From positions 1 to 64,000 of the forward strand of contig JAFGWC010000016.1 of assembly GCA_016937695.1 (NCBI GenBank): 64,000 bases of DNA, in the 5' to 3' direction. The notes under the pieces were generated by a model. The model searched no databases, was not told where the DNA came from, and saw only the letters and a program-made list of their open reading frames with translations. Both the position numbers and the translations under genes were made by a program. Below are positions 17,898-36,938 of this stretch, one piece after another; position 1 is the first letter of the stretch, and each line of letters opens with the position of its first letter. Source of the stretch: Bacteroidales bacterium (lineage in GTDB: Bacteria > Bacteroidota > Bacteroidia > Bacteroidales > NBLH01).

Positions 17898-18314
17898 TTA
17901 TTTTAATGTTCTCATATAGTTAACAATAAACCATCTGTCATCGACAGAAGTGATTTTTTTCTCAAAATTAGGCATTTCATCTCTTCCTATAAAACTTTTG
18001 TAATAAAGTTCGCCATCGGTTTGAGCCAAAACTTCTTTTGATGTTAAATCTCTCATTTCGGTATCAAGTTGGCTTGCTTTTTTACCATCGCCATAACCTT
18101 CTGCACCATGGCATGATGCACAATGTTGATCAAACAATGTTTTACCTACTTTTTTAGCATCAGCTTTGCCAGCCATTGGGTTTTTCATGTTTTTAAATTC
18201 AGCAGGTACAGGCCATTCGTCTTGAGTATCATTTGTTGATGATTGTAAAATTAAACCACCAAAAACAAACAATAAGCTCAAAAATAAAAATTTCATTTTT
18301 TTTAGAATTTCCAT
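17898..18314 (-). CDS. Secreted monohaem class I cytochrome c
   Basis: Periplasmic electron carrier with one haem: CASCHG at about 65-70 and a distal Met in GRDEMPNFEKK. 138 aa; signal peptide near the N-terminus. Translation may start at Met1 or, more like a signal peptide, at the ATG at 18296 (MKFLFLSLLFVFGG). Last gene of the operon that begins with the 4Fe-4S protein at 21686, with a terminator right after it. It probably accepts electrons from the NrfD/4Fe-4S module or passes them on to the multihaem proteins. That role is inferred. Confidence 0.9.
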   Translation of the reverse strand: MEILKKMKFLFLSLLFVFGGLILQSSTNDTQDEWPVPAEFKNMKNPMAGKADAKKVGKTLFDQHCASCHGAEGYGDGKKASQLDTEMRDLTSKEVLAQTDGELYYKSFIGRDEMPNFEKKITSVDDRWFIVNYMRTLK

Positions 18315-18434
18315 AGCATTTGTTTTTAAGTTATTAATATATAAAACGTAATATAAAAATGATAATTGCGTATATAAAATGTCATTAAATAGATTAACTA
18401 TTTATACATTATCATTTTATGATTTGTGCAGTTT

Positions 18435-19304
18435 TTAGGCTACTTTTTTTATTTTACTGACTTTATAAATGGCTAAACCAAAATTAAACCATGCACCTAA
18501 AAGGATTATTGCAACAGCAATTAACATCCATAAAGGCGCCTCGCCTGCGCTAGCCCATAAAGCTCTTAAATGTTGATCATCTGAATAAGATACTACTGTT
18601 CCCCACTGAATATTTTGAGATTTTTCAATCGTTCCATATTCATCATTATCAAGAAGTTTAACAATTACTGTCAAATTCCCAGTAGAGTCACCTGGCATAT
18701 CCATCGGAAACTTTACTTGAAGTTGTCCATTTTCATCAGTACTCCCTTTTTCTACTGTAAATAGACTGTATAATCTTTTCACATATACATAAACATCAGT
18801 ATTTTCAACAGGTATAGTTTCGCCTTCATTATTTAAAGTGGTAATTTTCACATCTACCATTTTTAAAGAGTCTACTATATTTAGTAAAAAATTGAGCTCG
18901 GCATCTTTAATTTCGACCGATTTTTTAGCGCTTTTAAACTTTTCGCTTTTTTTCAGTTTTGCAGTAAAAATTGTAAATCCATTTTCGTTTAATGGAAATT
19001 TAAAATCATTTACAATATGCAATATTGCATAGCCTTCTTTGTCAGATTTTATAGTTCCGAGAATTAATTCAGATGAGTCGCTTTCAGCTGTAAATGTAAC
19101 ATTCTGATCAATTACTGGCATAAAATTTTTGTTCTCTTTGTAATATAATTTTGAGGACAATACTTTAGTCCCATCATTTAATTTCAGATATTGTAATTTT
19201 AATATGACTTTTTTAGGCTCATTGTTTTCATCTTGTGCAACAGCCAAAGTATTTATTAAAAACAGAATAAATGAAACACTGATTAATATATTTTTGATTT
19301 TCAT
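18435..19304 (-). CDS. Exported, membrane-anchored protein of unknown function in a respiratory operon
   Basis: I do not recognise a named family. 289 aa. Signal peptide (ILFLINTLAVAQ), then a beta-rich periplasmic part of roughly 220 residues that looks like two Ig-like domains (around 30-140 and 145-240, with DENGQLQVKFP in the second). A single C-terminal TM helix follows (about 257-280, LWMLIAVAIILLGAWFNFGLA) with a short basic tail. It lies between the NrfD-type gene and the cytochrome c gene on the same strand. An assembly or docking subunit of that complex is the obvious guess. No Cys or haem motif is present. Confidence 0.75.
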   Translation of the reverse strand: MKIKNILISVSFILFLINTLAVAQDENNEPKKVILKLQYLKLNDGTKVLSSKLYYKENKNFMPVIDQNVTFTAESDSSELILGTIKSDKEGYAILHIVNDFKFPLNENGFTIFTAKLKKSEKFKSAKKSVEIKDAELNFLLNIVDSLKMVDVKITTLNNEGETIPVENTDVYVYVKRLYSLFTVEKGSTDENGQLQVKFPMDMPGDSTGNLTVIVKLLDNDEYGTIEKSQNIQWGTVVSYSDDQHLRALWASAGEAPLWMLIAVAIILLGAWFNFGLAIYKVSKIKKVA

Positions 19305-19359
19305 GTGTTTATATTTTAATATTTTCTAATAATAATATAAATTTTTACTCCCTTGTTTT

Positions 19360-20685
19360 TTAGAAAAACCTAATTCCCCTAGCTTTTTCTTCCATTTCAG
19401 AAACAGGAATAATTGGGGCAAGTTTTGACATTATTACAAATACTAAAACAAAAAAGGCAACTCCAGCTAAAGTTACTAACCACTCAACCCATGTGGCAGA
19501 ATAGTGTACCCATTCCATTCTGGTATCCTGAATAGGAATATAAGGGGTTTCAAGAGAAGGAACTACAATTAAATATCTTTTAAACCATAAAGCTATTAAA
19601 ATTAGGGCAGAAGTGATAGTTATAGAATTTATTGATCTAAACTTTGGAAACGCTATAATTATAATTGGAATAATAGCAGCAAAAACATTAGAGAATATAA
19701 ACATTGTTCCATATTCAGAAAAATCCCAGAACTTAGATAATAGGATGCTTTCTGTTTTTTGAGAGTTGTACCACGATGTAATATATTCGCTAAACGAAAA
19801 ATAGCCGTAGAAAAGAGAAAGGATTAGCAATGTAAATCCCAAATAATTAAAATGCTCTTTAGTGATATATTTTTCAAGTTTGAAATATTTCCTGTAATAC
19901 CACATAATTAGTATTAAAATTGCAATACCAGAATAAACAGCCGTAAGTACAAAATAGGGTGCAAAAATGCTATTGTGCCATCCCACACGCTGATTCATAC
20001 CAAAAAGCCATGCTAATAAAGAATAGGCTATGATTGATGTTGGAATAATTATCGCAGCCATTATATTAAGTGCCTGATTTAGTAATTTTTCCTGAGCTTT
20101 GGTATTATTATATCCCCATGAAAAAATTGTATAAAGTTTTTTTCGCCAATTGGAAACTTTTAATTCAGAACAGTCGCGTAGTTTTGCAAAATCTTTAATA
20201 TATGTGAAATTTAGATACACAATACAAAAAAACAAATCAGATACAATTGCAATAACATCCCAAATAAGAGGCGACTGTATTCTAGCATATAAAAACATAT
20301 ATAAAAATCGTTCAGGCCGACCAATGCACACTAAAATAAAAATGGGACCAACAATTAAAGAGGTAAGAGTAACTATTTCAAGCATTCTAAGTAGTGGACG
20401 CCCCCAATTTATTCCTGCTAAATGAAATACGCCTGCAATTAAAGCGCCGGCATAACTTAAGCCGATGAAAAATATAAAATTTACTATGTAAACCGCCAAA
20501 ACAACATGGTCGCGCATTCCGGTTACAACCTGTCCCTCAATAACTTGATAAACAAAAGCAAGTAAACCAATTCCTATTATCATTAATAAAACGATAATTG
20601 TTGTAATCCATTTTCTGTCAGGTTTCCCAAGACTAGGAAGGAAATCTCCTAATATTTCTTTATATTCTTTGTTTACTGTGTTCAT
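19360..20685 (-). CDS. NrfD/PsrC-type quinol-interacting membrane subunit
   Basis: Polytopic membrane protein that moves electrons between menaquinol and a periplasmic 4Fe-4S partner. 441 aa with about ten hydrophobic segments, so of the larger HybB/DsrP-like type. Landmarks are YAGALIAGVFHLAGINWGRPLLRMLE and CIGRPERFLYM. It starts 11 nt after the 4Fe-4S subunit stop, so the two are translationally close partners. No catalytic molybdopterin or NrfA-like subunit is next to them. It may instead serve the multihaem cytochromes. Confidence 0.92.
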   Translation of the reverse strand: MNTVNKEYKEILGDFLPSLGKPDRKWITTIIVLLMIIGIGLLAFVYQVIEGQVVTGMRDHVVLAVYIVNFIFFIGLSYAGALIAGVFHLAGINWGRPLLRMLEIVTLTSLIVGPIFILVCIGRPERFLYMFLYARIQSPLIWDVIAIVSDLFFCIVYLNFTYIKDFAKLRDCSELKVSNWRKKLYTIFSWGYNNTKAQEKLLNQALNIMAAIIIPTSIIAYSLLAWLFGMNQRVGWHNSIFAPYFVLTAVYSGIAILILIMWYYRKYFKLEKYITKEHFNYLGFTLLILSLFYGYFSFSEYITSWYNSQKTESILLSKFWDFSEYGTMFIFSNVFAAIIPIIIIAFPKFRSINSITITSALILIALWFKRYLIVVPSLETPYIPIQDTRMEWVHYSATWVEWLVTLAGVAFFVLVFVIMSKLAPIIPVSEMEEKARGIRFF

Positions 20686-20696
20686 TTTTACACCTT

Positions 20697-21686
20697 TTAC
20701 GATTTATCTAAAATATTTTTGTATTTTAACTTTTGTTCATCAGTAAGATCTTTTAATCCAACCTCATAAGGGAAACTTTTGTTAACCGGAGGTAAATAGT
20801 AAACTCTTGGCTGTGTTCCCAGTTCTTCCAGATATCTATATCCTGCTTTTTCCTTAAGGGTTTGTTTAAACCTTAATGTTTCTGTTCCGTTTGATATAGC
20901 ATCTTCATTTTCATCGCCAAAGTATATTGCACCCATAGGACATCCTGTAACGCAATATGGCAATTTACCTTGTCTACTCATGTCAGGACAAAAATCACAT
21001 TTAGTAACGGTTCCCATTTGGGCAGGAAGACTTGTTTCAGGTGAAAATTGCTTTTTATCTTCATCTTCAGCATTTTCTGCTTTAAGTTCATTGATTCTTT
21101 CTTTCCAATTAAATATTCTTGCTGAATATGGGCAAGCTGAAATACAAAATTTGCACCCAATACATCTATCAACATCAATTAAAACGCATCCATCTGACCT
21201 TTTGAAAGTGGCACCAACAGGGCAAACTTTCACACAAGAAGGATTATCGCAGTGATAGCAGTTTTTGGGGAACCAATATGGATCATTGTATTTATGGTCT
21301 TTCATTAAATGAACACTCATATATTCTTGTCCGGGATCAAGTTTATGACCACTTTGACAATTAGAAGTGCATTTACCGGCATTGGCACATCTTGAAAGAT
21401 CAATTACCATAACAAATTTTCTTCCAGGAATCCCTTTTCTTGCTTCATCTCCAACTGTAGGTTCACTTGGAGTAACAGGATAAGTTTTTGTTTTTTCTAC
21501 TTCAACTATTCTGCCGTCTGTAGTTAGCAGTTTGATCATTTCTGTTTTTTTTTCTTCTGTTATATTGCTAGCTTTTGAGCAAGACGATAATAATCCACCA
21601 CCAATAAAAGTACCTGCACCTACTGCAAGTCCTGATTTTAGGAATTTTCTTCGTGAAAATTCTTTACTTTTTTCATCTTTTGGCAT
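20697..21686 (-). CDS. Tat-exported 4Fe-4S cluster electron-transfer subunit (NrfC/DsrO/PsrB type)
   Basis: Periplasmic iron-sulfur subunit. 329 aa with a twin-arginine signal (FSRRKFLKSGLAVGAG). Four Cys groups for up to four [4Fe-4S] clusters follow: CANAGKCTSNC, CYHCDNPSCVKVCP, CIGCKFCISACP and CDFCPDMSRQGKLPYCVTGCP. It opens the operon with the NrfD-type protein. A candidate sigma54 promoter (about 21790) and a paired palindrome (21903-21936) lie upstream. It probably passes quinol electrons to periplasmic cytochromes or the reverse. The terminal partner is not encoded beside it. Confidence 0.93.
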   Translation of the reverse strand: MPKDEKSKEFSRRKFLKSGLAVGAGTFIGGGLLSSCSKASNITEEKKTEMIKLLTTDGRIVEVEKTKTYPVTPSEPTVGDEARKGIPGRKFVMVIDLSRCANAGKCTSNCQSGHKLDPGQEYMSVHLMKDHKYNDPYWFPKNCYHCDNPSCVKVCPVGATFKRSDGCVLIDVDRCIGCKFCISACPYSARIFNWKERINELKAENAEDEDKKQFSPETSLPAQMGTVTKCDFCPDMSRQGKLPYCVTGCPMGAIYFGDENEDAISNGTETLRFKQTLKEKAGYRYLEELGTQPRVYYLPPVNKSFPYEVGLKDLTDEQKLKYKNILDKS

Positions 21687-22858: not shown

Positions 22859-25800
22859 TTAGGTTATTATATCCTCAATTTGTTTTTTATCTTTTGAATT
22901 TTGGATAAATGCAATTATAGAAACCACTACAATAATACATAAGGTAACATAAACAAAATTTGGTATTGGAACAGCATCGCCTGAAGCGTAGGAGTGAAGT
23001 CCTGACAAATAGTAGTTTACACCAAAATATGTCATTAAAACAGATGAAAAACTCAATAAAGACAATAAATTGAATGCGTAATTATTATTTAAAGATTTAA
23101 TTAATCTTGTATGAGTTACAAATGAATAAATAATTATGGAAATCAAAGCCCATGTTTCTTTTGGATCCCAACCCCAATATCTTCCCCATGATTCGTTTGC
23201 CCATATTCCGCCTAAAAAAGTACCTATTGTTAACATGTATAATCCGGCTATCAAAGCTAAATGATTAACATTTGTTATTTCAGATATTGTTAAATTTATA
23301 TTTTCTGAATTTCTTTTGTTTTTTAATATCATTAAAATTAAACTTAAAAAACCTAATAATGCACTTAATGCCAAAAAACCATAGCTGGCAGTTATTACAG
23401 AAACGTGAATTGTTAACCAGTAAGATTTTAAAACCGGAACCAGATTTGTTATTTGAGGATCCATCCAGCTTAAATGTGCTACCATTAATGTAATTGATGC
23501 TAATAATGCTGTCGCTGCTAATGTAATAGGCGATTTTTTAACAAACATAAAGCCTGCAAGCATAGTTGCCCATGCTATATATATCATAGATTCATAACCA
23601 TTACTCCATGGTGCATGTTCTGATACGTACCAACGCAAACCAAGTCCATAAGTGTGTAATAAGAAAAGAATGCTAAGAAGTATAATTGCTATAATTGTTA
23701 TTTTTTTAACTTCCATTTTAGGTTTTAGGATACCAACAAATAGAACAATAAGAAATATTAAGCCAACAATTCCGTAATACTTATAAATTCTATTAAAGAT
23801 ATCAGCATTTGTATAATGTATTTCCATGTTCAGTTTTGTTTCTGAAGGAATAATTTCAGATGCATATTTTGTTTGAAGTTCACTTATTTGCTGTATAATT
23901 TCATTTGGTTTTGTCCAGTCTCCACTTGTTTCTGATTTTATCAATTCATTATAGTATGATGAAAAAATATTTGCAACAAACAGTTGGTAAATACTATCTT
24001 TAATTTGTTTGTTTTCAGCCGGACTAAGCCATTTTTTATTTATATCACCAATTACAGGAAATACATTAAGATATGTACCGGAATATATCTGATAAGAAAT
24101 ATTAAGTCTTTCATCTACTGCAATAACATCTTTGTCGAATTTATTTCTTTGAGAAGGGTCTTTTTTAAAGGCTTCATCAATATAAAATTTTAATTTATAT
24201 TCGTTTTTTTCAAGATTAACCAGATCATTAAATGAAAAATATGATCCTTCAACTCCTAATAAATTTTTCAATTCAGGATTACTAACTTTTATCATTTTTA
24301 CATCTTTCCAGAATTCAGAATTAAAAACCATTCCTAAAAAAACTTGATTTGAGTTTAATCCAAGAAAATTATCTTTTCTTGATATTTTTCGAAGCAGTTC
24401 GTTTGTTAAAGTATTATATGGCTTAGTACGGCTGCTGTTATCCTGAACAAATAATTTACTAAATACTTTTGAATGAGATAAATCAACATGCTGCCTTGTA
24501 TTTTGAGAATATATGTTTTGAGAACCGAATAATAACAGAATTAGAAGAATTTTACTTATATTTTTTCTTTTATTTCTTATTTCTGATGTCTTTTTTACAA
24601 TTTCAAGGAAATAACTATTTTTGTTAAAGATTGATAAAAACATACCAAGAGATAAAAGAAAGTATCCGATGTATGTAATTATTGTTCCGGTTTTATCTTT
24701 ATTTACCGATAAAATTGTTCCTTTTTCATCTTTATCGTATGATGACTGAAAAAATCTGTAACCTTTATAGTCGAGAACATTATTCATGAAAATGCGATAA
24801 TCCATTTCAATATTGTTGCTTTTATCCAATAATTTTACTTCACTGGCATATGAAGATGGGCTTTCGGAACCAGGATATCTATCTATAAGAAAATCTCTAA
24901 GTTTTAATTCAAAAGGTAATTTAATTTCTGCTGCACCATAATTAAACTTGATGTTAATTCCATTAATATCAGAATATACCGGAATTCCAACAGAACCAAA
25001 TGAGCTTAATAGTTCAATTTTTTTTGTAATATCATTACTTTTTATTTCAAATTCTAAAGCAAAAAATTGAATGCCATTTTTAATATCGCCGGGCACATAC
25101 GATATTCTTGCTTTTTCATATATCTTTTTAACAATAATCTTCTCATTTTCAATTGAATACAGCTTGTTTAATTGAATTTCGTGCTTAACATTTGGCTGTA
25201 AAACACTATCTGTGCTGCCTGTCATGGAAAGTGTATATAATTTATATGGTGATTCTATAAAGAGTTTGCCTTTTTGTGTGAAAAGATTAATGTTTTGTGC
25301 TGAGTTTTCATTGTTTAATGAGAAAACCAATTCGCAAATGCTTAAAGTTGATTTATCTTCTAAAAAATAATTCACCATTCTGCCATGTGTTGGCGAAACA
25401 ATTTCGACTATTGATTTACCTCCAATCACTTCAACAATAGTTTGTTTAGGGTTTGGAATAATATTTAATAATTTCGTTTCAATTTTTTCCCCTTCTAAAG
25501 TAAAAATTTCTTTAAAATCTGATTTTAATTTTGGCGATATAAAAATTTCTTTTTTTAAATGTACTGTTTTGTTATTTTTAGATAAATCAATTTGTAGAAA
25601 GGAATTACCTGAAAGGATTTTATTGTTGGTTTCGCCCTCGCGAATATGCATAAATCCTTCAAAACTAATGTAACGAGTTATACCTGCGCCAATCAATATA
25701 ATTATAAAAGCTAAATGAAAAGTTAGAATACTTAGTTTTTGTTTTTTATACAATTTATATTTGAAGATATTGCCTATCATATTAACTGCAAGTAAAAATT

Positions 25801-25960
25801 GTATTAATTCAAACCACCAAGCATTATATACAAAGTGTTTTGCAACCGCAGCGCCATAATCATTTTCAATAAATGTTGCCGCGCCCATTGCAAAGGCGTA
25901 TAAAATAAGTAATACTGACATTAAATGTATAGAAATAAGTGCTTTGTAAAGTCGTTTCAT
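22859..25960 (-). CDS. ccsBA: Fused cytochrome c synthase CcsBA (ResB-CcsA, system II)
   Basis: Exports haem and attaches it to CxxCH motifs of apocytochromes in the periplasm. 1033 aa. The N-terminal ResB/CcsB half has three early TM helices (about 5-95), a large periplasmic part and a TM at about 430-455. A further periplasmic region follows. The CcsA half, with many TMs, starts near 750 and contains the haem-handling WWD motif WGRYWGWDPKETW at 925-937 and conserved His in VTHTRL and GLHSYASG. It lies directly downstream of the multihaem cytochromes, which need it. A 16-mer also found before the gene at 40669 lies 58 nt upstream of the ATG. Confidence 0.95.
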   Translation of the reverse strand: MKRLYKALISIHLMSVLLILYAFAMGAATFIENDYGAAVAKHFVYNAWWFELIQFLLAVNMIGNIFKYKLYKKQKLSILTFHLAFIIILIGAGITRYISFEGFMHIREGETNNKILSGNSFLQIDLSKNNKTVHLKKEIFISPKLKSDFKEIFTLEGEKIETKLLNIIPNPKQTIVEVIGGKSIVEIVSPTHGRMVNYFLEDKSTLSICELVFSLNNENSAQNINLFTQKGKLFIESPYKLYTLSMTGSTDSVLQPNVKHEIQLNKLYSIENEKIIVKKIYEKARISYVPGDIKNGIQFFALEFEIKSNDITKKIELLSSFGSVGIPVYSDINGINIKFNYGAAEIKLPFELKLRDFLIDRYPGSESPSSYASEVKLLDKSNNIEMDYRIFMNNVLDYKGYRFFQSSYDKDEKGTILSVNKDKTGTIITYIGYFLLSLGMFLSIFNKNSYFLEIVKKTSEIRNKRKNISKILLILLLFGSQNIYSQNTRQHVDLSHSKVFSKLFVQDNSSRTKPYNTLTNELLRKISRKDNFLGLNSNQVFLGMVFNSEFWKDVKMIKVSNPELKNLLGVEGSYFSFNDLVNLEKNEYKLKFYIDEAFKKDPSQRNKFDKDVIAVDERLNISYQIYSGTYLNVFPVIGDINKKWLSPAENKQIKDSIYQLFVANIFSSYYNELIKSETSGDWTKPNEIIQQISELQTKYASEIIPSETKLNMEIHYTNADIFNRIYKYYGIVGLIFLIVLFVGILKPKMEVKKITIIAIILLSILFLLHTYGLGLRWYVSEHAPWSNGYESMIYIAWATMLAGFMFVKKSPITLAATALLASITLMVAHLSWMDPQITNLVPVLKSYWLTIHVSVITASYGFLALSALLGFLSLILMILKNKRNSENINLTISEITNVNHLALIAGLYMLTIGTFLGGIWANESWGRYWGWDPKETWALISIIIYSFVTHTRLIKSLNNNYAFNLLSLLSFSSVLMTYFGVNYYLSGLHSYASGDAVPIPNFVYVTLCIIVVVSIIAFIQNSKDKKQIEDIIT

Positions 25961-26067: not shown

Positions 26068-27162
26068 CTAGTTAACTAGTTTAATTTCTACTCGTCGGTT
26101 TTTTGCTCTGTTATTTTCATCATCGTTTGATGCTATTGGGTTTGATTTACCATAACCTATTGTATACAAACGATAATGGTTAATGCCTTGACTAATAATA
26201 ATTTGCTTGATTTTTTCAGCTCTTTTTTGCGATAATTCACTATTAATCGAATTTTCGCCAACATTATCGGTATATCCTTGTATTTCAACTTTACAATTTG
26301 GGTATTTTTTCATAAAATTAATCACATTTATTAAATTTTTATCTGTATTTTCTATTATTTCTGTTGATGCAAATACAAATTTAATGTCAGTAAATTCCAG
26401 GCTGTTAAATTCATCCAATCGCTGTTTGTAATTAATCCATGAAGGATTTATATCATAATTAAATTTAATATTATTTTTATACGACAAATTTTCGGTAATA
26501 GTATCTTTTTTTGGGACTCCAAATCTATCGTATTTTTTTTCTGAATGACATCCTGGAAAACATGAAGCTCCATTTTCTGTTTTTACATAGTTAATTGGCA
26601 TTTCCCAATGTCCAAATTGAATTTTTTCGTTTATATGAAAATTATTTGGAGAACCATGTACATTGTGGCATACACTACAGTTTCTGCTCTTTTTTCTGTT
26701 AACATGTAAATAATGTAAATTTTCATTTCCGATTCTAAAATTTGTAGCTGAATTTGTATTTACTTCTGCAAATAATTTACTGTCATGGCAACTAAAACAT
26801 AAAGCAAAACTATCGATGCTGGCGTTTAAATATGCTTCGTGACCGGGAAAATTCTTAACCAAGTGCAAAATATTATTTGATCCATGTGGACTATGACAAA
26901 TAACGCATCCACTATCAATAGCTCTGTGTATAAAATTTCCGGTTTGTAACAGTTTTTTTATATTTTTCACTTTAATATCACCAAATATAATTGTTTTATC
27001 ATGACAATTTAAACACAAAGCTTTTTCTTCTGTTAATAATAGTTTTGAATGTTCTGATTGATGCGGATTATGACAAGCTAAGCAATTACCATCGGTTGCC
27101 GGTTTATGCAAAACTTTTTGTTTATCCATAAAATTATGACATGTATAGCAATGTGTTGACAT
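26068..27162 (-). CDS. Multihaem cytochrome c fused to an OmpA peptidoglycan-binding domain (main open part; 5' end frameshifted)
   Basis: The open part has seven haem sites: CYTCH, CLACH, CLNCH, CVICH, CFSCH, CSVCH and an unusual CFPGCH. A C-terminal OmpA-like domain follows (about 265-364: VEIQGYTDNVGENSIN, LSQKRAEKIKQ, NRRVEIKLVN) that should bind peptidoglycan. The ATG at 27162 is internal. In the same frame upstream, two more sites (CIECH, CAECH) and a signal peptide (FFIIIGLLVLYTSTLSQ) are readable. They connect to an ATG at 27385 only if one T is removed from the nine-T run at 27364-27372. The intended product therefore has nine haem sites. It is paralogous to the C-terminus of the 26-site protein upstream. 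It could be a haem wire tethered to the cell wall. Confidence 0.85.
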   Translation of the reverse strand: MSTHCYTCHNFMDKQKVLHKPATDGNCLACHNPHQSEHSKLLLTEEKALCLNCHDKTIIFGDIKVKNIKKLLQTGNFIHRAIDSGCVICHSPHGSNNILHLVKNFPGHEAYLNASIDSFALCFSCHDSKLFAEVNTNSATNFRIGNENLHYLHVNRKKSRNCSVCHNVHGSPNNFHINEKIQFGHWEMPINYVKTENGASCFPGCHSEKKYDRFGVPKKDTITENLSYKNNIKFNYDINPSWINYKQRLDEFNSLEFTDIKFVFASTEIIENTDKNLINVINFMKKYPNCKVEIQGYTDNVGENSINSELSQKRAEKIKQIIISQGINHYRLYTIGYGKSNPIASNDDENNRAKNRRVEIKLVN

Positions 27163-27385
27163 ATTATCTGATAAAAAAAATCCTTTCTCTTTTTTGTCGT
27201 GTGGATGTTTTTTACCGTTTGGAAGATGGCATTCTGCACAATTCTCCCTTATCGGGTGAATTACATTACTTGTAAATAGTTTAGTATGGCATTCAATACA
27301 TTGTTCACTATTCTTATTTTGACTTAAAGTGGAAGTATATAAAACTAAAAGTCCGATAATTATAAAAAAAAATAAACTTTTTCAT
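27163..27385 (-). pseudogene. 5' part of the cytochrome-OmpA gene, out of frame by one base
   Basis: ATG at 27385 starts MKKFIFF and then meets a run of nine T (27372-27364). As written the frame is lost and stops 23 codons in. With eight T the product continues as a textbook signal peptide ending TLSQ and runs into the frame of 26068-27162 with two extra CxxCH sites. The run is in the signal peptide, a common place for on/off switching by slippage. Sequence error is the other reading. Confidence 0.75.
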
Positions 27386-27434: not shown

Positions 27435-29624
27435 TTATTGTATAGTTCTGTCATATTTTTTCTCTGAATGACAACCAGGGAAACAGGAGCCTCCGTTTTC
27501 CTGATTAATAAATTTAATTGGCATTTCCCAATTACCATAATTTGCTTTATCTTCTATAAGGTGTTCATTTTTAGATGAATGCATGTCATGACAGGTTATG
27601 CAATTTCTCCCTCTGTTTCCGTTAGTATGTAAAAAATGTAAATTTTGATCGCCATCTCTAAAGTTTGTTGCTGTTTTGCTATTTTTTTGTTCAATAAGTT
27701 CGCTAGTATGACAATTAAAACAGAGAGCGAAATTTTCTTTTGTTACAGGGGCATATGACCCAACAGGAAAATTGTCAATCAATAAATATTGATTGTTAGC
27801 CGCATGAGGGTTATGACACATTGAACATCCTTCATTTACTGGTCCGTGAATGTACACACTCGTTTCTAATTGCTTTTTAATATTTATTACGTTGCCTGTT
27901 TTTGATTTATACGTTTTGTTATGACAATTTAGGCATAAATCTTTTTCTTTTAATTTTAGGAAATTTGCCTCGCTTGATCCATGAGGCGAATGACAAGTTG
28001 TACATGATTTTTTATCATTAAGTGCCTTATGTCCAAATTGATAGCTATTAATTCTATTTATTAAGTCATCATGACAATCATAACATAAGCTTGGATTAGT
28101 TTTTGGAACTAAAAAACTCTCTTTTGCACTATGAGCATCATGACATTTAAAGCAATTTTCTTTTGCTGGCGCATGAACATATTTTGATATAATTGCCGTA
28201 CCTACATTATCGTGGCAGCCAAAGCATAATTCCGGCATTTTATTCTTTAAATATGAATCAAAATCCGATTGATGAGAATCGTGGCATTTATGACATCTTC
28301 CACTCTGAACAGGATTATGCACATTATCTCCTTCATTAATTTTTAAATCGTGATATTCTTTACATAGTTTTTCAGTACTTTTTTGAGTTAGTAAACTTTT
28401 ATTTTTAGAACCATGAGTAGCATGACACTTAATGCATTGTCCATCACCGGCTGGTTTATGAATATTTTTTTTAGTGTTAAAATCTTTATGGCAAGAATAG
28501 CACAAATTTGGAACTGTACCTGGTAATAAATAACTTTTTTTTGCACTATGCGGATTGTGGCATTTAAAGCAATTTTCTTTTGCCGGAGTATGAGTTTGTT
28601 TTAATTTCATTTCTTCGCTAACCGCGTCATGACAATTAAAACATAATTCCGGCATTTCTTGTTTCAAAAATGAATTATAGTCAGATTGATGCGGATCGTG
28701 GCATTTATTACATCTTCCGCCTTGAACAGGATTATGCACAATATCTTCTTCATCAATTTTTAAATCGTGGCATTCATTACATAAAGCAGCAGCCTTTTTC
28801 TGTTTAAGTAAATTTTTGTTATTAGAACCATGAGTTGTGTGGCATTTACTGCATTGTCCATCACCGGTTGGTTTGTGAATATTTTTTTTAGTGTTAAAAT
28901 CCTTATGGCAAGAAAAGCATAAATTTGGAACAGTATCCGGCAGCAAATAACTTTTTTTTGCACTATGCGGATTATGGCATTTAAAGCAATTTTCTTTAGC
29001 CGGAGTATGAGTTTGTTTTAATTTCATTTCTTCGCTAACAGTTTCATGACAATTAAAACATAATTCCGGCATATCTTGTTTCAAAAATGAATTATAGTCA
29101 GATTGATGTGGATTGTGGCATTTATGACAACTTCCGCTCTGAACAGGATTGTGCACAATATCTTCTTCATTAATTTTTAAATCATGACATTTATTACATA
29201 AAACTATAGTTTTTTTCTCATGTAATAATTTTCTGTTTTTCGAACTGTGTGGCGAATGACAGTCAATACATTTCCCTTCTTTTGATGGCTGATGCAGATT
29301 TTTTTTATTGTTTAAGTTATCATGGCAAGTATAACATAGTTCCGGCACTTTTTCTGTTAAAGAAAATCCTCCTATTCCTTTTTGAGGATGTTCATTTCCG
29401 TTAGCTTTATGGCATTTATTACATTCCTCTTCTGAAGGTTTGTGTTTATTTTTATTATTCATTAATTCACCATGGCATTGCAGACAGCTTTCATCAGCCA
29501 TGTTATTTATTGATAAATAATAATTAGAATCTAAAGATTTTATTTCATCAACTTTATTTTGATTTACAAAATTTAGATTAAAACTTGAAATCCATATTAA
29601 TATTGAAAATAGAGATATATCCAT
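27435..29624 (-). CDS. 26-site multihaem cytochrome c with three tandem six-site units
   Basis: 729 aa and almost nothing but haem sites: 25 CxxCH, one CxxxCH (CFPGCH, ten residues before the end) and one decayed site (CKEYH at 421-425). It has three 139-143-residue units. Units 1 and 2 (143-281 and 282-420) are nearly identical and have six sites each; unit 3 (from 421) is more diverged and starts with the lost site. Many sites are followed by NPH, a doubled-CxxCH-type pattern. The N-terminus (MDISLFSILIWISSFNLNF) is hydrophobic but lacks basic residues. It starts 9 nt after the beta-barrel gene's stop. It was probably made to span a long distance for electrons. Confidence 0.9.
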   Translation of the reverse strand: MDISLFSILIWISSFNLNFVNQNKVDEIKSLDSNYYLSINNMADESCLQCHGELMNNKNKHKPSEEECNKCHKANGNEHPQKGIGGFSLTEKVPELCYTCHDNLNNKKNLHQPSKEGKCIDCHSPHSSKNRKLLHEKKTIVLCNKCHDLKINEEDIVHNPVQSGSCHKCHNPHQSDYNSFLKQDMPELCFNCHETVSEEMKLKQTHTPAKENCFKCHNPHSAKKSYLLPDTVPNLCFSCHKDFNTKKNIHKPTGDGQCSKCHTTHGSNNKNLLKQKKAAALCNECHDLKIDEEDIVHNPVQGGRCNKCHDPHQSDYNSFLKQEMPELCFNCHDAVSEEMKLKQTHTPAKENCFKCHNPHSAKKSYLLPGTVPNLCYSCHKDFNTKKNIHKPAGDGQCIKCHATHGSKNKSLLTQKSTEKLCKEYHDLKINEGDNVHNPVQSGRCHKCHDSHQSDFDSYLKNKMPELCFGCHDNVGTAIISKYVHAPAKENCFKCHDAHSAKESFLVPKTNPSLCYDCHDDLINRINSYQFGHKALNDKKSCTTCHSPHGSSEANFLKLKEKDLCLNCHNKTYKSKTGNVINIKKQLETSVYIHGPVNEGCSMCHNPHAANNQYLLIDNFPVGSYAPVTKENFALCFNCHTSELIEQKNSKTATNFRDGDQNLHFLHTNGNRGRNCITCHDMHSSKNEHLIEDKANYGNWEMPIKFINQENGGSCFPGCHSEKKYDRTIQ
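27936..29198 (-). repeat. Three tandem ~417-bp coding repeats inside the 26-site cytochrome gene
   Basis: Unit 1 is 29198-28782, unit 2 is 28781-28365 and unit 3 is 28364-27936. Units 1 and 2 are very similar at DNA level (for example the coding of SDYNSFLKQ and KKSYLLP), so that duplication looks recent. Unit 3 is older by divergence. Recombination between copies would add or remove six haems at a time. Confidence 0.85.
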
Positions 29625-29632
29625 AGTAGAAG

Positions 29633-31594
29633 TTATAATTTAAATTTTCTGATAATTTTGCCGTAAACACTATTGAAATTTATTTTATCACCAAGGCGTG
29701 TTCGTCTGTAAACATCAATTCCAATTTCAAATGTCATTTGCCGATAACTGGTTTTAAATTCTCCTCGTCCTGTAATTAAGTCTAAATCAATTCCATCGCC
29801 TTGCTGATTTCTATATCCCATTTCAAAAGAAATTCCTGTTCGTAATCTGTGATTATAAGCTATCTTTCCTGTAACATCTGTATATTGTTGAGGTATTTTA
29901 TCAACAGTTTTTTCATAGTTTCTAATATTCCCATTTAATGAACATATTAGCTTTTTAAAAAATATTTTTTGAAAATTTGCATAATATCTTACCATTTGAT
30001 AAGGTATTATATTGCTGTTATAGTTATCATATTCTACTCCAATTCTGGCAAAGCCAAAGTCAAGTTTAGAGCCAATTAAAGTTTGAGTATATTTATTCAG
30101 AGTTATATCTTCAATATTAATAAAATTTACATAATCTTGTTTTGATGTATGAAAATAGAGTTCAAGCAATCTACCAAAAAGTACAATATTTGCATGAAAA
30201 GAATTATTGTTTGCATCGTACTGATATGAGCCAATTTGCATTGCAGTATAATCGATATAAACTGTTTCATTATTTTGAATTTGTCCGCCGGGAATACGTT
30301 GAATTTCGATAAATCCGTTTCTTTCAATGATAATATAATCAAAATCAAGCTGATAAATTATTGTAGATGAAATATCTTTTACAATAATTGTTGAAGGATC
30401 GATATTTTGCCTGTTTAATATTTCAATTTGTCCATTTGATAATACATGTTCTTCATTTAATTCGCTTACAAAATTATCTTGTGCATTCATAGTTTGATGA
30501 TGCCTGTAATATTTGTAAGAAAAAGAAAATCTTCCGGTGTGTATTTTTTTTGTATAATTAATATCCAAACCTGCTTTATTATTATACTCATCGTATACCG
30601 AATGATTGAGCTTATAGTATTCGTAATATATATTTGTTTTTAAACTTAAAAAAAGTTTATGCCGAATAGAAGCTTTAATTCTGTTCTGATTTAATTTTTG
30701 AGTTTCCTGATGTGTACTATTAAATTGATAATTGGCTAAAAATGTTAGTTTTAGCGGCAACTTCATTGATAATAGCTCATTAACCTGAAATCTTTGTAAT
30801 TTATTATTTCCTTCTTGATTAAAATTAGTAATTATAGATCTGAAATTATATTCTTTTTTTGTATCAAAATAAAAGTTATTTTTTAATGATAAATTATCAA
30901 TATTATTTTCAATTGGCAATAAATCGGCATCTTGCCTTATATAAATATCATGAGAGTAATTTAATTCATTAAAATCAAAATCAGTAAAGGATTTTGAAGC
31001 TTTTGCAAGTAAGTTTTTTTGATCCATTTTAAATACACGGACTGTAGTTACTTCTTCTTGTTCCCAAGAGTTTTGAGCATAGCTTACAGAGAATGGAAGA
31101 ATATCATTTTTATATGACATTCGGCCACCAAATCTGTTATAATTAGATATAATGTTGGTTGGCATTTCTCTATTATTGATGCTTTGATTGAAATTGGCAA
31201 ATGCATTTAAATTAATGTTTTTATTTTTAAAGAAAGTAGTACTTATATCAAGCTTTTTTAACGTTCTCATTTCTGAACGATTAGGAATTGCAAGATATTG
31301 GTCGGTTTTTGTTTCTGGACTATATTCAACATTTAAATCTAAAATCATAAATTTTGGATCCCAAAAATAACTTTTGGTTTTTAAGCTAATTCCTCCCAAA
31401 AAATAAGTGCTTTCATTAAATTCATTAAACTGATTAAACGTGGTTTCGTTTCCTCTGTAGTAAGTACTGAAATTTATGTCTCCATTTAAATTTGTCAGAT
31501 TCCAAAGACCTGCTGATATAATAGGTTCTTGAGCAAAAATGCTTGTTTTTAATATTAAAAATAAAACGATATATGTAAATTTATTTGTTTTCAA
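29633..31594 (-). CDS. Outer-membrane beta-barrel, probable porin of a porin-cytochrome conduit
   Basis: 653 aa, signal peptide ending SIFAQ. The rest has no TM helix or Cys. It consists of alternating aromatic/polar strands (INFSTYYRGNETTF, FSFSYKYYRHHQT, LKLTFLANYQFNST, GISFEMGYRNQQGD) and ends KIIRKFKL, as in large outer-membrane barrels. It lies between a 9-haem lipoprotein and a 26-site cytochrome with gaps of under 10 nt. That is the arrangement of porin-cytochrome conduits (for example MtrB-type systems) that let cytochromes meet through the outer membrane. I see no direct sequence match to MtrB, so the role rests on context. Confidence 0.75.
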   Translation of the reverse strand: MKTNKFTYIVLFLILKTSIFAQEPIISAGLWNLTNLNGDINFSTYYRGNETTFNQFNEFNESTYFLGGISLKTKSYFWDPKFMILDLNVEYSPETKTDQYLAIPNRSEMRTLKKLDISTTFFKNKNINLNAFANFNQSINNREMPTNIISNYNRFGGRMSYKNDILPFSVSYAQNSWEQEEVTTVRVFKMDQKNLLAKASKSFTDFDFNELNYSHDIYIRQDADLLPIENNIDNLSLKNNFYFDTKKEYNFRSIITNFNQEGNNKLQRFQVNELLSMKLPLKLTFLANYQFNSTHQETQKLNQNRIKASIRHKLFLSLKTNIYYEYYKLNHSVYDEYNNKAGLDINYTKKIHTGRFSFSYKYYRHHQTMNAQDNFVSELNEEHVLSNGQIEILNRQNIDPSTIIVKDISSTIIYQLDFDYIIIERNGFIEIQRIPGGQIQNNETVYIDYTAMQIGSYQYDANNNSFHANIVLFGRLLELYFHTSKQDYVNFINIEDITLNKYTQTLIGSKLDFGFARIGVEYDNYNSNIIPYQMVRYYANFQKIFFKKLICSLNGNIRNYEKTVDKIPQQYTDVTGKIAYNHRLRTGISFEMGYRNQQGDGIDLDLITGRGEFKTSYRQMTFEIGIDVYRRTRLGDKINFNSVYGKIIRKFKL

Positions 31595-31599
31595 TAGTA

Positions 31600-32088
31600 T
31601 TATTTTATTTTAATAAACATTTTATTATTTCCGCCATGCGGATTGTGACATTCCGTACAATTTATTTCCTTATTTTTATGATAATCATTTTCAAAAATCA
31701 ATGCTTCATCATGACAATTGAAGCATAGTTTCTGTCCTTCGAATAATAGTAAATTTTTAGTTTGTTTTATATGCGGACTGTGACATGCTGTGCAATGGCC
31801 GCCTGCAACAGGGCCATGTACAAATTCATCAATATTATTAAAATTTTCATGGCATTTATAGCAAGAAGCTATTTTTGCAAGATATCGGTTTTCGCCACCG
31901 TGTGGGTCATGACATTCGGTGCAATTTGTTATATTAATGTTTAAATGATATTTATTTCTAAAAACTAAAACTGAATCATGACATTGAATACACAATTGTT
32001 GAGATTGACGAATTAGTAAATTTTTTGATTTTGATTTATGCGGGTTATGACAAGATGTACAGAATCCACCACCAACAGGCCCATGCAC
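31600..32088 (-). CDS. C-terminal part of a 9-haem lipoprotein cytochrome (frameshift fragment)
   Basis: Seven CxxCH sites in 162 aa: CTSCH, CIQCH, CTECH, CYKCH, CTACH, CFNCH and CTECH, most followed by NPH or DPHGG. The open frame begins with a GTG at 32088, but the same frame is readable further upstream and includes one more site (CYNCH). It joins the N-terminal lipoprotein fragment (32154-32441) if one A is added in the AAA at 32164-32166. Intended product: about 280 aa, nine haems. It ends 6 nt before the beta-barrel gene, so the two probably act together. Confidence 0.82.
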   Translation of the reverse strand: MHGPVGGGFCTSCHNPHKSKSKNLLIRQSQQLCIQCHDSVLVFRNKYHLNINITNCTECHDPHGGENRYLAKIASCYKCHENFNNIDEFVHGPVAGGHCTACHSPHIKQTKNLLLFEGQKLCFNCHDEALIFENDYHKNKEINCTECHNPHGGNNKMFIKIK

Positions 32089-32153
32089 ATATGAGAAATT
32101 ATCGTTAAAATTTTCATGGCAATTATAACAAAGTTTTGGTTGTGGCTCAATAG

Positions 32154-32441
32154 TTAACCCATCTTTCGTTGATCATGGCAACTCTCGCAATTTCTTTTTT
32201 GATATGGTGAATGAAAAACAAATTGAGGCTCAGTTGCTTTTGTGGATAAGTTTAAATCCGAATTAAAGTCAACTAATTTACTTGTGTTTTTTGTAAGTAC
32301 TGTGTTTTCATTTGATACTTCTGGAACACCATCAAAAATAAATGATAATACTTTATAACTTTTTTGAGGCGTGCAAGCTATTAAATAAATAGTAATTATT
32401 ACTAAAAAAAGTAACAGATATTTTTTTCGGTTTAAAAGCAT
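32154..32441 (-). CDS. N-terminal part of the 9-haem lipoprotein cytochrome (frameshift fragment)
   Basis: 95 codons. Lipoprotein signal (KYLLLFLVIITIYLIAC, lipid Cys at 23), a polar linker and one haem site, CESCH, then a premature stop 6 codons later. Inserting one base at 32164-32166 reads on as QRKDGLTIEPQPKLCYNCH into the downstream fragment. The lipid anchor places the intended protein on a membrane, most likely the outer membrane beside the beta-barrel. It starts 6 nt after the NHL-repeat gene stop. Confidence 0.8.
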   Translation of the reverse strand: MLLNRKKYLLLFLVIITIYLIACTPQKSYKVLSFIFDGVPEVSNENTVLTKNTSKLVDFNSDLNLSTKATEPQFVFHSPYQKRNCESCHDQRKMG

Positions 32442-32446
32442 TTATT

Positions 32447-33514
32447 TTATTGTTGTATTTTTTTAGGTTCTACATAACCATAAATGCTTAATTTATTATC
32501 ACCATAAATATTTGTAACAAGAATTAAATATTTAAGATTATATCTTTTGTCTACATATTTTTCAAAATATTTAATGTTTTCATAATCAATATCTACTTTT
32601 GCAGGCAAAGCCATACTGCCCGCGCCATTATATGCACCTCCAAAAAACATTAATAGTTGTTTGTTTTTATTAAATATTTGAATATTTTGAAATGCAGCGT
32701 CAACTACATACAAATTTGATTCTTTATCAAGAGAAATTCCTTTTGGTCTTACAAATTGTCCAATATTTTTGCCGTAACTACCAACAAAACCGGTATAAGT
32801 TCCGTCATGATTGTATATTTTTACATTAAAACTGCCAAAATCAGTAACATATACTTTATCATCTGTAACACTTATGTTAGATGGCTGATTTAAATAAGCT
32901 TCAGAATCGTTTTCTACATTTGGGAATTGATATAAAGCTTTGAAAGTTGAATCATTTTCATAAACATTTATTTTATGATTTTTTAAATTTGCAACCCAAA
33001 TTTTATTGTTTTTCACAAAAATATCAGTTGGCTTAAAGTTTTCAATATCGCCAAAAGCGTTGATATAATTGCCAGCTTTATCAAACACAACAATTTGTTG
33101 ACGATTTCCATCTGCTACATATAAATATTCTTTTTCGTCAACAAAACAACTTAAAGGAAGCTTTAATTGGCCTCTGCCTTTTGGAATGAAGTAGTCAAAA
33201 TTACTATTTATCAAATCTATAATTACAATTCCTTTTATTCCGGTGTCGCAAATGTAAATTTTGCCATTATTAATTTTTATACCATAAGGTTTAAGAAATG
33301 ATTTTGGCTTGTCTTCTCCAAATATAAATTTATTAAGTGCTGATTGATTTCCTTCGATATCAAGAGAGCTGTTTATACTTGTAAGAAATTGAATACGTGC
33401 AGTATCCGGAGGTGAAGGGAAAAAAGTGTATTCTCTTTCAATTGCATGTTTTGTTGTTTGTCTTGAGCATGACAAACAAAATATTAAAAGAGTAACCGTT
33501 AGGATAAATAACAA
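32447..33514 (-). CDS. NHL-repeat (six-bladed propeller) lipoprotein; start region frameshifted
   Basis: A 6-bladed beta-propeller: repeats include IKINNGKIYICDTGIKGIVI, YLYVADGNRQQIVVFD, GSFNVKIYNHDG and NLYVVDAAFQNIQIFN. The mature start FFPSPPDTARIQFLTS is a signature often seen in propeller proteins encoded with multihaem cytochromes. The frame's first usable codon is a TTG at 33514. The natural ATG at 33528 is followed by eight A; nine A would give MKKKSLLFILTVTLLIFCLSC, a proper lipoprotein signal. Function is unknown; it may bind or shield a partner of the conduit. Confidence 0.82.
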   Translation of the reverse strand: MLFILTVTLLIFCLSCSRQTTKHAIEREYTFFPSPPDTARIQFLTSINSSLDIEGNQSALNKFIFGEDKPKSFLKPYGIKINNGKIYICDTGIKGIVIIDLINSNFDYFIPKGRGQLKLPLSCFVDEKEYLYVADGNRQQIVVFDKAGNYINAFGDIENFKPTDIFVKNNKIWVANLKNHKINVYENDSTFKALYQFPNVENDSEAYLNQPSNISVTDDKVYVTDFGSFNVKIYNHDGTYTGFVGSYGKNIGQFVRPKGISLDKESNLYVVDAAFQNIQIFNKNKQLLMFFGGAYNGAGSMALPAKVDIDYENIKYFEKYVDKRYNLKYLILVTNIYGDNKLSIYGYVEPKKIQQ

Positions 33515-33528
33515 AGATTTTTTTTCAT
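33515..33528 (-). pseudogene. Poly-A start segment of the NHL lipoprotein, out of frame by one base
   Basis: ATG (33528-33526) followed by A8 (33525-33518). As written this frame stops after nine codons (MKKNLCYLS). One extra A restores the lipoprotein signal of the gene below. Translation from the downstream TTG would give a signal peptide without basic residues, so the ATG is the more natural start. Confidence 0.6.
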
Positions 33529-33600: not shown

Positions 33601-34185
33601 CTATTTATCGTGGCAAGTTAAACATAGTGCACTACCAGCATTCGGCATTCTTAAGAAATGGCCGTGAGTATTGTCATGAACATTGTGGCAAGAGGCGCAT
33701 TCCATTCTTCCTGCAAACAAAAGGGCGGCTGGAGGGGCATTTAATCCGCCGTCTGCTGTAACCAGCGCAGCGTCATATGTAAACCCAATTGGATGATCAT
33801 TGCTTAAATTAATACCTAAATTAGCTCCACCTGGAATATAATTTGTGCCATTATCAACACCACCAAAATTTTCAAGAGCAATTGTACCATCATGGCAGCT
33901 TAGGCATAATAAGGAGTTTGCAGCTGGTTGTCCAGTAGTAGCATTAAATGTGCTGCTAGTTGTGTTATCATATAATGTATATGTGGCAGTAGTTATTTCG
34001 TGGTTCCATAAAGGAGCCTGATCAGAGGCTATACCATTGTGAGGAGTGTGGCATACGATACAAATTTCACCATTTGCCCATGCGTTACCCGAAAAATCAT
34101 GACCAGTGCCTGTAATCTGTCCTATACTTAGATTTGCAAAAGTAAATACAAGAAATAATGTAAGAAATAAGTTTAACTTTTTCAT
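33601..34185 (-). CDS. Secreted 4-haem cytochrome c
   Basis: 194 aa, signal peptide ending LSIGQ. Four CxxCH: CIVCHTPH, CLSCHDGT, CASCHNVH and CLTCHDK at the very C-terminus. The pattern CxxCHTPH...APLWNHE...YTLYDN...CLSCHDGT...DHPIGF matches the first half of the 12-site cytochrome at 37653-39311, so the two are related. It has its own long upstream region with a paired palindrome (34467-34500) and a candidate sigma54 promoter. It is probably a periplasmic shuttle feeding the conduit. Confidence 0.92.
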   Translation of the reverse strand: MKKLNLFLTLFLVFTFANLSIGQITGTGHDFSGNAWANGEICIVCHTPHNGIASDQAPLWNHEITTATYTLYDNTTSSTFNATTGQPAANSLLCLSCHDGTIALENFGGVDNGTNYIPGGANLGINLSNDHPIGFTYDAALVTADGGLNAPPAALLFAGRMECASCHNVHDNTHGHFLRMPNAGSALCLTCHDK

Positions 34186-34509: not shown

Positions 34510-35883
34510 TTAAAGCTTATATTTTTTTTGTTTATATCTTAATGTATCTCTTGAAATTCCTAATAGTTTTGATGCTTTAGTCTGGTTATTATCAGATTTT
34601 TGTAAAGCTTTTATTATAAGCTGTTTTTCTAATTCATAAAGTGAAATACCTTCGTTTGGTAATTCAAAATTATATTTATTATGAACAATAGTAGATGTTT
34701 GTTTTACATTACTAATTTCTCCCGGCAGATCGTTTAAATACAAAGTGTTATTTGTTTCCAAGATTATAGCGCGTTCAATAACATTTCGCAATTCTCTTAT
34801 ATTTCCAGGCCAATTATATTGCATTAATGCTTTTTTAGCTTCAGGCTCAATACTTTTTACCTTTTTACCAAACTGGGAATTAAAAAGCTCTATAAAATAA
34901 TCAATTAAAAGCGGAACATCTTCTTTTCTTTCTCTTAAAGGTGGTAAAGTTATTTGAAATACTTTAAGTCGATAATAAAGATCTTCTCTAAATGTTTTAT
35001 CTGCAATTGATTTTAATATATCTTTATTTGTAGCTGCGATAATTCTTACATTTACAGGAATGTCAACCGTTCCACCTAAACGTCGCACATATCTATTTTC
35101 AAGAACACCAAGTAATTTAACTTGTGTAGAAATATTTATTTCACCAATTTCATCTAAAAAAACTGTGCCGTTTTCAGCAATTTCAAAAAGGCCTTTTTTT
35201 AGTTTTTTTGCATCTGTAAATGCTCCTTTTTCATATCCGAATAATTCACTTTCTAATAGTGTTTCTGGTAATGAAGAACAATTTATTGTAACAAATGGTT
35301 TTTCATTTCTGTTGCTTTCATTATGAATTGATCTTGCAAATACGTCTTTACCACTTAGGCTTTCACCAAGAAGAAGAATTGTTGTAGATTCTGTTTTTGC
35401 AATTTTTTTTGATAAATTTATTATGTCTTTTATTTTTTTTGATTGGCATACAATATCTTTAAAAGTTAATTTGTCATTCTGTTGGCGTTTTAGAATTTGA
35501 ATTTCTTTATTTATATTTATTTTATTTTTAATATTATCGATAATAATATTAATTTCTTCAAATGAAAAAGGTTTATTAATGTATTCAAAAGCACCAAGTT
35601 TCATAGCTTCTACAGCCATTTCAATTGATCCATAGGCTGTCATGAAAACAATAATAATTTCATCATCAATTGATTTAATTTTAGAAATTACTTCTAATTC
35701 TTGCATTTTAGGCAGCCTGTTATCCACAAAAATAACATCCGGATAATGAAGTTCAAATAATTTTAACCCTTCTTCACCGGTTTCTGCTGTAAATACTTTA
35801 TGTCCTTTTGAGCTTAATTGTTTTTCAAAAGACCATCGTATTAGTTTTTCATCATCAATAAATAAAATTCTCAAAGGTTTCAT
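34510..35883 (-). CDS. Sigma54-dependent NtrC-family response regulator
   Basis: 457 aa. Receiver domain with acidic Asp10/Asp11 and phospho-acceptor Asp54 (VIFVDNRLP). The AAA+ domain has Walker A GESLSGKD (about 173-180), the sigma54-contact loop GAFTDAKK (about 218-225) and Walker B with FLDEIGEI. The C-terminal Fis-type HTH is NQTKASKLLGISRDTLRYK. With the haem-sensing kinase upstream it forms a two-component pair. Likely targets are the flanking cytochrome genes and the 4Fe-4S/NrfD operon, which carry similar upstream palindromes. Confidence 0.94.
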   Translation of the reverse strand: MKPLRILFIDDEKLIRWSFEKQLSSKGHKVFTAETGEEGLKLFELHYPDVIFVDNRLPKMQELEVISKIKSIDDEIIIVFMTAYGSIEMAVEAMKLGAFEYINKPFSFEEINIIIDNIKNKININKEIQILKRQQNDKLTFKDIVCQSKKIKDIINLSKKIAKTESTTILLLGESLSGKDVFARSIHNESNRNEKPFVTINCSSLPETLLESELFGYEKGAFTDAKKLKKGLFEIAENGTVFLDEIGEINISTQVKLLGVLENRYVRRLGGTVDIPVNVRIIAATNKDILKSIADKTFREDLYYRLKVFQITLPPLRERKEDVPLLIDYFIELFNSQFGKKVKSIEPEAKKALMQYNWPGNIRELRNVIERAIILETNNTLYLNDLPGEISNVKQTSTIVHNKYNFELPNEGISLYELEKQLIIKALQKSDNNQTKASKLLGISRDTLRYKQKKYKL

Positions 35884-36129: not shown

Positions 36130-36876
36130 TTAAAGATAAGTTTTATTTTTTTCTGTTGGTAATGAAATGTTAAATATACTTCCTTTTTCAATATTTTTTT
36201 TAACCCATATTTCTCCATAATGTTTTTCAATAATATCTTTAACTATTGCCAAACCTAATCCTGTTCCTTCTGTTTTAGTTGTAAAGAAGGGTTTGAAAAT
36301 ATTTGGTAAAATTTCTTTTGAAATTCCAATTCCTGTGTCTTCTATTTTAATTATTACTTTTTTCTTAATTGGGTCATATTTAGTAATATATGTAATACTT
36401 CCCGATTCTGTAATTGACTGGATTGCATTTAAACCAAGGTTTAATAGTGCATTTTCAATTTTTTCATGGTCAAAATTAAATAAAGGAATACTTGAATCAA
36501 ATTTTGTTTGGAAAATAATTTCCTTTTGATGATTTTGATTTTCTAAGAAGAAAACTAGCGATTTTATAAGCTCATTTATATTATTTTCGGATAGATTTAA
36601 TGCTTTTGAGCGAGAATATATAAGTAAATTTGAAACAGCATCATTAACTCTGTTCGCTTGTCTTTTAATTTCTTCTAAAATTGGTTTATTTTGTTCTTCA
36701 TGCATTTCATCAGCAATAATTTCTATTGCATTTGCAATTCCTGTAATCGGATTTCTTATTTCATGTGCTAAACGAGCAGCCATTTCTCCAATTGTAGCTA
36801 GTTTTTTATTATTTCGTAACTCTTTTTTATGACAAGTCATTAACTTTTTTTGTGTTTTTTGGAAATTGTCCAACAT
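36130..36876 (-). CDS. Kinase part of a haem-sensing histidine kinase (frameshift fragment)
   Basis: NtrB-type transmitter: H-box GEMAARLAHEIRNPITG (His38 of this fragment), N-box NALLNLGLNAIQSI, G1 IEDTGIGIS and G2 TGLGLAIVKDII. The same frame is readable about 80 nt upstream of the ATG at 36876 and encodes the HAMP remainder (KINKGDLDERIEI...LWQLREDFNEM). It joins the sensor fragment 36939-37607 if one A is added to the seven-A run near 36957-36963. As written the kinase is cut from its sensor. It pairs with the NtrC gene downstream. Confidence 0.85.
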   Translation of the reverse strand: MLDNFQKTQKKLMTCHKKELRNNKKLATIGEMAARLAHEIRNPITGIANAIEIIADEMHEEQNKPILEEIKRQANRVNDAVSNLLIYSRSKALNLSENNINELIKSLVFFLENQNHQKEIIFQTKFDSSIPLFNFDHEKIENALLNLGLNAIQSITESGSITYITKYDPIKKKVIIKIEDTGIGISKEILPNIFKPFFTTKTEGTGLGLAIVKDIIEKHYGEIWVKKNIEKGSIFNISLPTEKNKTYL

Positions 36877-36938
36877 TTCGTTAAAATCTTCTCTTAATTG
36901 CCATAATTCTTTAGATTCAAGAATTTCAATACGCTCAT

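Follow-up and report, generated by a model that had tools for sequence, protein, structure and literature searches.

A multihaem c-type cytochrome joined to a complete OmpA-family domain is encoded on the minus strand of the 64,000-nucleotide stretch of Bacteroidales DNA analysed here (hereafter the window), and the fusion is a recurrent variant, not a product of chance or of a join between unrelated sequences. It lies in a conserved cluster of cytochrome genes that includes a homologue of the filament subunit OmcE, and we discuss below what a cytochrome that would hold on to the cell wall may be doing in such a place.

A cytochrome and an OmpA domain in one frame

Frame analysis gives a single open frame on the minus strand, running from 27381 to a stop at 26068 (437 codons), with the following features.

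26068..27381, minus: fused multihaem cytochrome-OmpA open frame, without a normal start; first in-frame ATG at 27162
27364..27385, minus: out-of-frame ATG (27385..27383) and nine-T run (27372..27364), the signal peptide being shifted by one base
26545..27300, minus: nine haem-binding motifs (eight CxxCH and CFPGCH)
26380..26544, minus: linker that joins the two parts; its length varies from relative to relative (alignment)
26095..26379, minus: OmpA-family (PF00691) domain with conserved Asp and Arg (Pfam and alignment)

The haem motifs of the protein (P0001, window:26068-27363:-) are CIECH, CAECH, CYTCH, CLACH, CLNCH, CVICH, CFSCH, CSVCH and CFPGCH, with start residues from 22 to 268. The sequence-only reading had described a nine-site cytochrome carrying an OmpA domain; motif count and Pfam do place both in one frame, and the number nine stands, but not all the sites are CxxCH, the ninth being CX3CH. 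With its several paired motifs the cytochrome part matches Paired_CXXCH_1 (PF09699), the doubled-CXXCH multihaem family, at 1.5e-27 (95.4 bits against a cut-off of 20.6). The OmpA match (residues 329-423, 2.4e-18, 66.7 bits against a curated cut-off of 27.2) covers positions 2-98 of the 98 in the profile, that is, the full domain, and neither match can be due to chance. The motifs GYTDNVG, LSQKRAEKI and NRRVEI, by which the domain had been recognised, all fall within this frame. The gene span first proposed, 26068..27385, has to be given up, as it comprises 1318 bases, which is not a multiple of three, and the ATG at 27385 lies in another frame. A single-sequence AlphaFold model of the fusion reached a pLDDT of 34 and was left unused.

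In OmpA of A. baumannii an Asp and an Arg contact diaminopimelate (PMC5974059). Alignment places the equivalents of both residues, in GYTD and LSxxRA, in the window's domain and in those of its relatives (four of four aligned fusions). The G001 and G176 proteins begin with a signal peptide of the cleavable type and have no lipobox; these signal peptides, together with the OmpA domain, suggest that the fused protein is periplasmic, and it would be bound to peptidoglycan at the end of a linker that varies between about 50 and about 170 residues.

Recurrence of the fusion and state of the window's copy

Fusions with both Pfam domains in one frame are found in the window and, intact, in G001, G176, G291, G799 and G804. 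These six genomes (the window's and five others) represent three families of one order, and all have the same conserved locus. The G001 protein, from the same genus as the window's genome, is 60% identical to the window's over its whole length; that of G176, which belongs to another family and has a 612-aa frame with 14+1 haem motifs, and that of G291 are 39-41% identical to it. The frames of G291, G799 and G804 are 724, 668 and 751 aa long, and the fused cytochromes as a group have 9 to 15 haem motifs. Two further genomes (G208 and G005) carry the gene on contigs that stop before the OmpA part. The sequence-only reading had proposed a domain search for fusions of multihaem CxxCH proteins with OmpA, and searches of relatives recovered such fusions in these five genomes. 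The core of that reading is supported: a multihaem cytochrome with an OmpA-type domain, which has the peptidoglycan contact residues and is encoded near a putative barrel, recurs in several genomes. One might still suspect an artefact of assembly or binning, given that the window's gene is frameshifted at its start and that its genome is in 159 contigs; we consider this very improbable, however, because the architecture recurs in five other genomes, in the same kind of locus and at the identities just given for G001, G176 and G291. An assembly join, in particular, is ruled out by the five intact fusions elsewhere.

The cytochrome without the OmpA domain is present in many genomes of the order and in some of the class and phylum. 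Since the majority of its relatives do without this domain, the OmpA part is not essential to the conduit. Sampling of the class and phylum gave unfused homologues or OmpA-only matches and no fusion, the counts being lower bounds, as few candidates were scored per genome; searches of genome contigs and plasmids brought no further fusion. In a tree of the cytochrome module the fused state needs four changes, at least two of which are forced by well-supported branches, and a single clade of fused cytochromes is borderline (AU p 0.058). Among the OmpA domains, those of G000 and G001 have vWA-OmpA proteins as their nearest neighbours, and those of G291, G799 and G804 group apart, again with borderline significance (AU p 0.070). 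More than one fusion event appears to be the better reading of these phylogenies, though not a proven one. A different kind of C-terminal extension is seen in L072 (1261..2820, minus), where a distant homologue of the cytochrome has a repeated DDKGNKGDVVVQPKLEKL tail at the site that OmpA takes in the fusions.

The window's own copy has lost its normal start. The frame of the ATG at 27385 reads MKKFIFFYNYRTF... and differs from that of the cytochrome, which opens after a TGA just inside this ATG and reads KSLFFFIIIGLLVLYTSTLSQ before the first haem site. A protein begun at the first in-frame ATG would lack haem sites one and two as well as the signal peptide. Were the nine-T run one T shorter or two longer, the ATG at 27385 would run into a normal signal peptide. 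In the assembly the export signal of the window's cytochrome is therefore out of frame, as is the normal start codon, and the protein may not be produced from this copy. We do not favour the idea that the T run is a phase-variable switch, because the relatives have no such run at their 5' ends: the start of the G001 gene (MMNKLFISILSVFLLSGISVFGQ) and that of the partial G005 gene (MNRYIFLLIISGFSILNLLGQ) are both ordinary.

One-base shifts affect four genes of the cluster, namely the fused gene, the lipoprotein cytochrome, the NHL lipoprotein and the sensor kinase (minus strand; in this order, at 27364..27385 in the nine-T run, about 32158 at GGG, 33518..33528 in an eight-A run and about 36957..36963 in a seven-A run). 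With similar lesions in three other cluster genes, the window's copy may be decaying or mis-assembled. That the whole cluster is a decaying remnant here, and the fused gene a recent pseudogene without function in this genome, we regard as possible but on the doubtful side. A 473-kb sample of this genome, with 360 genes of 100 aa or more, has about one clear split gene that does not belong to the cluster, and neighbouring genes of the fusion show a lost haem site and an altered ATPase loop, both described below. Against decay, internal stop codons are absent and the long frames are otherwise intact; three of the four lesions fall in single-base runs, as is typical of read error; and the same 473 kb contain some 15 late-start genes, probably with GTG or TTG starts, so that the contrast in lesions may be overstated. 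Local decay seems to us about as probable as read error.

The surrounding gene cluster

The fused gene is part of a cluster on the minus strand, of which the main members are listed here; the genes from 27435 onwards lie upstream of it.

22859..25960, minus: ResB-ResC type cytochrome c assembly protein, adjoining the fusion; a relative is in the same locus of G001
27435..29624, minus: 729-aa multihaem cytochrome (25 CxxCH and one CX3CH)
29633..31594, minus: 653-aa putative outer-membrane beta-barrel
31600..32441, minus: lipoprotein multihaem cytochrome with a LIAC lipobox (YKVLSFIFDGVP) and a break between two frames near 32158
32447..33528, minus: NHL beta-propeller lipoprotein; the eight-A run after ATG 33528 puts the start out of frame
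33601..34185, minus: 194-aa tetrahaem protein, homologue of the OmcE filament subunit (structure-database sequence match)
34510..35883, minus: response regulator with AAA+ and helix-turn-helix parts (by sequence)
36130..37607, minus: sensor histidine kinase that contains one CxxCH and is broken into two frames by the seven-A run
37653..39311, minus: 552-aa cytochrome with an OmcE-like N-terminal domain and further haem motifs
39641..40669, minus: second NHL beta-propeller protein

This arrangement is shared wholly or partly by L030, L031, L063, L064 and L065, and in part by L029. In G176 the fusion follows the barrel immediately, and in the window, G291, G799 and G804 a paralogous cytochrome stands between the two; in each case it occupies the slot that an unfused cytochrome has in relatives. 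In the window the paralogue is the 729-aa cytochrome, whose C-terminal part is related to the fused cytochrome and in which one further haem site has been lost (it now reads CKEYH). The regulator reads GESLSGKD in its ATPase loop where a relative has GESGTGKD, a change that fits relaxed selection on the window's locus. In the sensor kinase, the part encoded at 36939..37607 (minus) carries an extracytoplasmic-type CxxCH (NCNQCH), which is kept in the relatives' loci; control of the cluster through haem is possible.

The criteria for a porin-cytochrome conduit are a periplasmic cytochrome, an integral outer-membrane barrel and a surface lipoprotein (PMC6148476). The lipoprotein cytochrome, with its LIAC lipobox and nine haem motifs, spread over two frames in the window and in a single intact frame in L031, L063 and L064, corresponds to an outer-membrane lipoprotein with redox cofactors. 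The exported 653-aa protein gave no Pfam or PDB match; its size, its strands and the C-terminal Phe of its relatives (...RLIRKF) suggest that it is the barrel.

The 194-aa protein matches PDB 7TFS, the OmcE tetrahaem cytochrome filament of Geobacter sulfurreducens (PMC12954529), at 4e-28, in two segments (residues 3-150 and 158-194 out of 194) that extend to its last residue, and it also matches PDB 9yuq over residues 7-194. With four CxxCH and homology to OmcE over its whole length, it is a candidate cytochrome filament of Bacteroidota, and its gene is in every fuller copy of the locus. An OmcE-like domain also makes up residues 18-206 of the 552-aa cytochrome, which is possibly a cap or base subunit of the filament. 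Because the OmcE homologue stands together with NHL propellers, barrel, lipoprotein cytochrome and 26-motif cytochrome, the locus is best read as an OmcE-type filament and porin-cytochrome cluster, which probably builds cytochrome filaments that carry electricity.

In the f104 genomes, genes of cytochrome b561-type and NapC-type multihaem proteins come next after the fused gene, and these proteins are likely quinol-side partners; large cytochrome b561-multihaem and NapC-type proteins are encoded directly beyond it in L064 (1917..8713, minus), L099 and L100. The 925-aa cytochrome b-multihaem protein of G291 has no match in the window's genome. A row of genes for cytochrome c, NrfD-type and 4Fe-4S proteins lies at 17898..21686 (minus) in the window and is possibly a quinol-side complex for the cluster. 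Type IX secretion genes are also present in this genome (PorP/SprF at 11197..12129, and an SprA-like frame in L032), a sign that it belongs to Bacteroidota.

Proposed role and known systems

We think, with slightly more than even confidence, that the fused protein is the periplasmic partner cytochrome of this OmcE-type filament and porin-cytochrome locus, tethered to the wall and serving extracellular electron transfer. Its haem chain would pass electrons between cytochromes of the periplasm or the inner membrane and the barrel-lipoprotein conduit of the outer membrane, while the flexible linker and the C-terminal OmpA domain would tie it to peptidoglycan, the base of the conduit or filament thereby being held in place under the outer membrane; both the contact with the barrel and the direction of electron flow are deductions of ours. 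The sequence-only reading had seen in the fusion a wire bridging the periplasm. Nine haems alone are unlikely to span that space, and for a long reach across it the 26-motif neighbour might be the better candidate; the OmcE-type filament gene in the locus shifts the likely role of the fused protein to the base of the filament or conduit.

It could also be argued that mechanical anchoring is the chief task of the OmpA domain, which would brace the outer-membrane complex that OmcE-like filaments issue from, in the way that other envelope machines are braced by wall-binding domains, and that the haems matter little for reach across the periplasm. A filament gene is in the same locus, and the spread of motif numbers and linker lengths among the fusions looks as if a tether had been selected rather than an exact reach. 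The fused protein nevertheless keeps all its haem sites, which suggests that conduction matters too, and we find the mainly mechanical view rather unlikely. Returning to the wall-tethered partner cytochrome, a broader and more tentative suggestion, to which we give somewhat less than even credence, is that filament machines of Bacteroidota have recruited OmpA domains, probably repeatedly, pinning the periplasmic base of an OmcE-type nanowire or porin conduit to the wall, an arrangement that would be previously undescribed. A natural fusion of a periplasmic cytochrome with a wall-binding domain makes it possible to test how the envelope positions and holds outer-membrane electron conduits and cytochrome filaments, and the locus suggests that uncultured Bacteroidota may export electrons by way of clusters of the OmcE filament type.

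Several known systems can be compared with this locus. In the published model of OetABI from Desulfobacterota, a porin-cytochrome system is paired with filament cytochromes (PMC10553843); it has a barrel, a periplasmic cytochrome, a surface lipoprotein cytochrome and a filament-type cytochrome gene, for each of which the window's locus has a candidate, whereas the portion of that account available to us mentions no OmpA domain, and the likeness is one of layout. The genes Ga0056053_02426-02431 of Geoalkalibacter ferrihydriticus form one locus, in which an OmcE homologue is accompanied by two NHL-repeat proteins, by several multihaem cytochromes and by a cytochrome on the quinol side (PMC12016550). 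The window's locus brings together a similar set, but the functions of the Geoalkalibacter genes are only guessed and no OmpA fusion is reported for them. Compared with OmcE itself (7TFS), the 194-aa neighbour can be aligned from one end to the other, keeps each of the four CxxCH and ends alike at the C terminus; it comes from a different phylum, is known here from its sequence, and is the OmcE relative of the locus, which the fused protein is not. Finally, the window's OmpA domain is full-length and has the conserved Asp and Arg, as in the wall-binding domains of OmpA (C-terminal domain), Pal, MotB and PA0833, but the protein that carries it is a multihaem cytochrome and not a barrel, a lipoprotein or a stator; its nearest counterparts in other proteins are the domains of vWA-OmpA proteins. 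Both halves of the protein and the type of cluster are already known. The earlier statement that no example of the arrangement had been described agrees with the one literature collection searched, in which no description of a multihaem-OmpA fusion was found, and what is new relative to that collection is a cytochrome of a filament and conduit locus with a wall-binding domain of its own.
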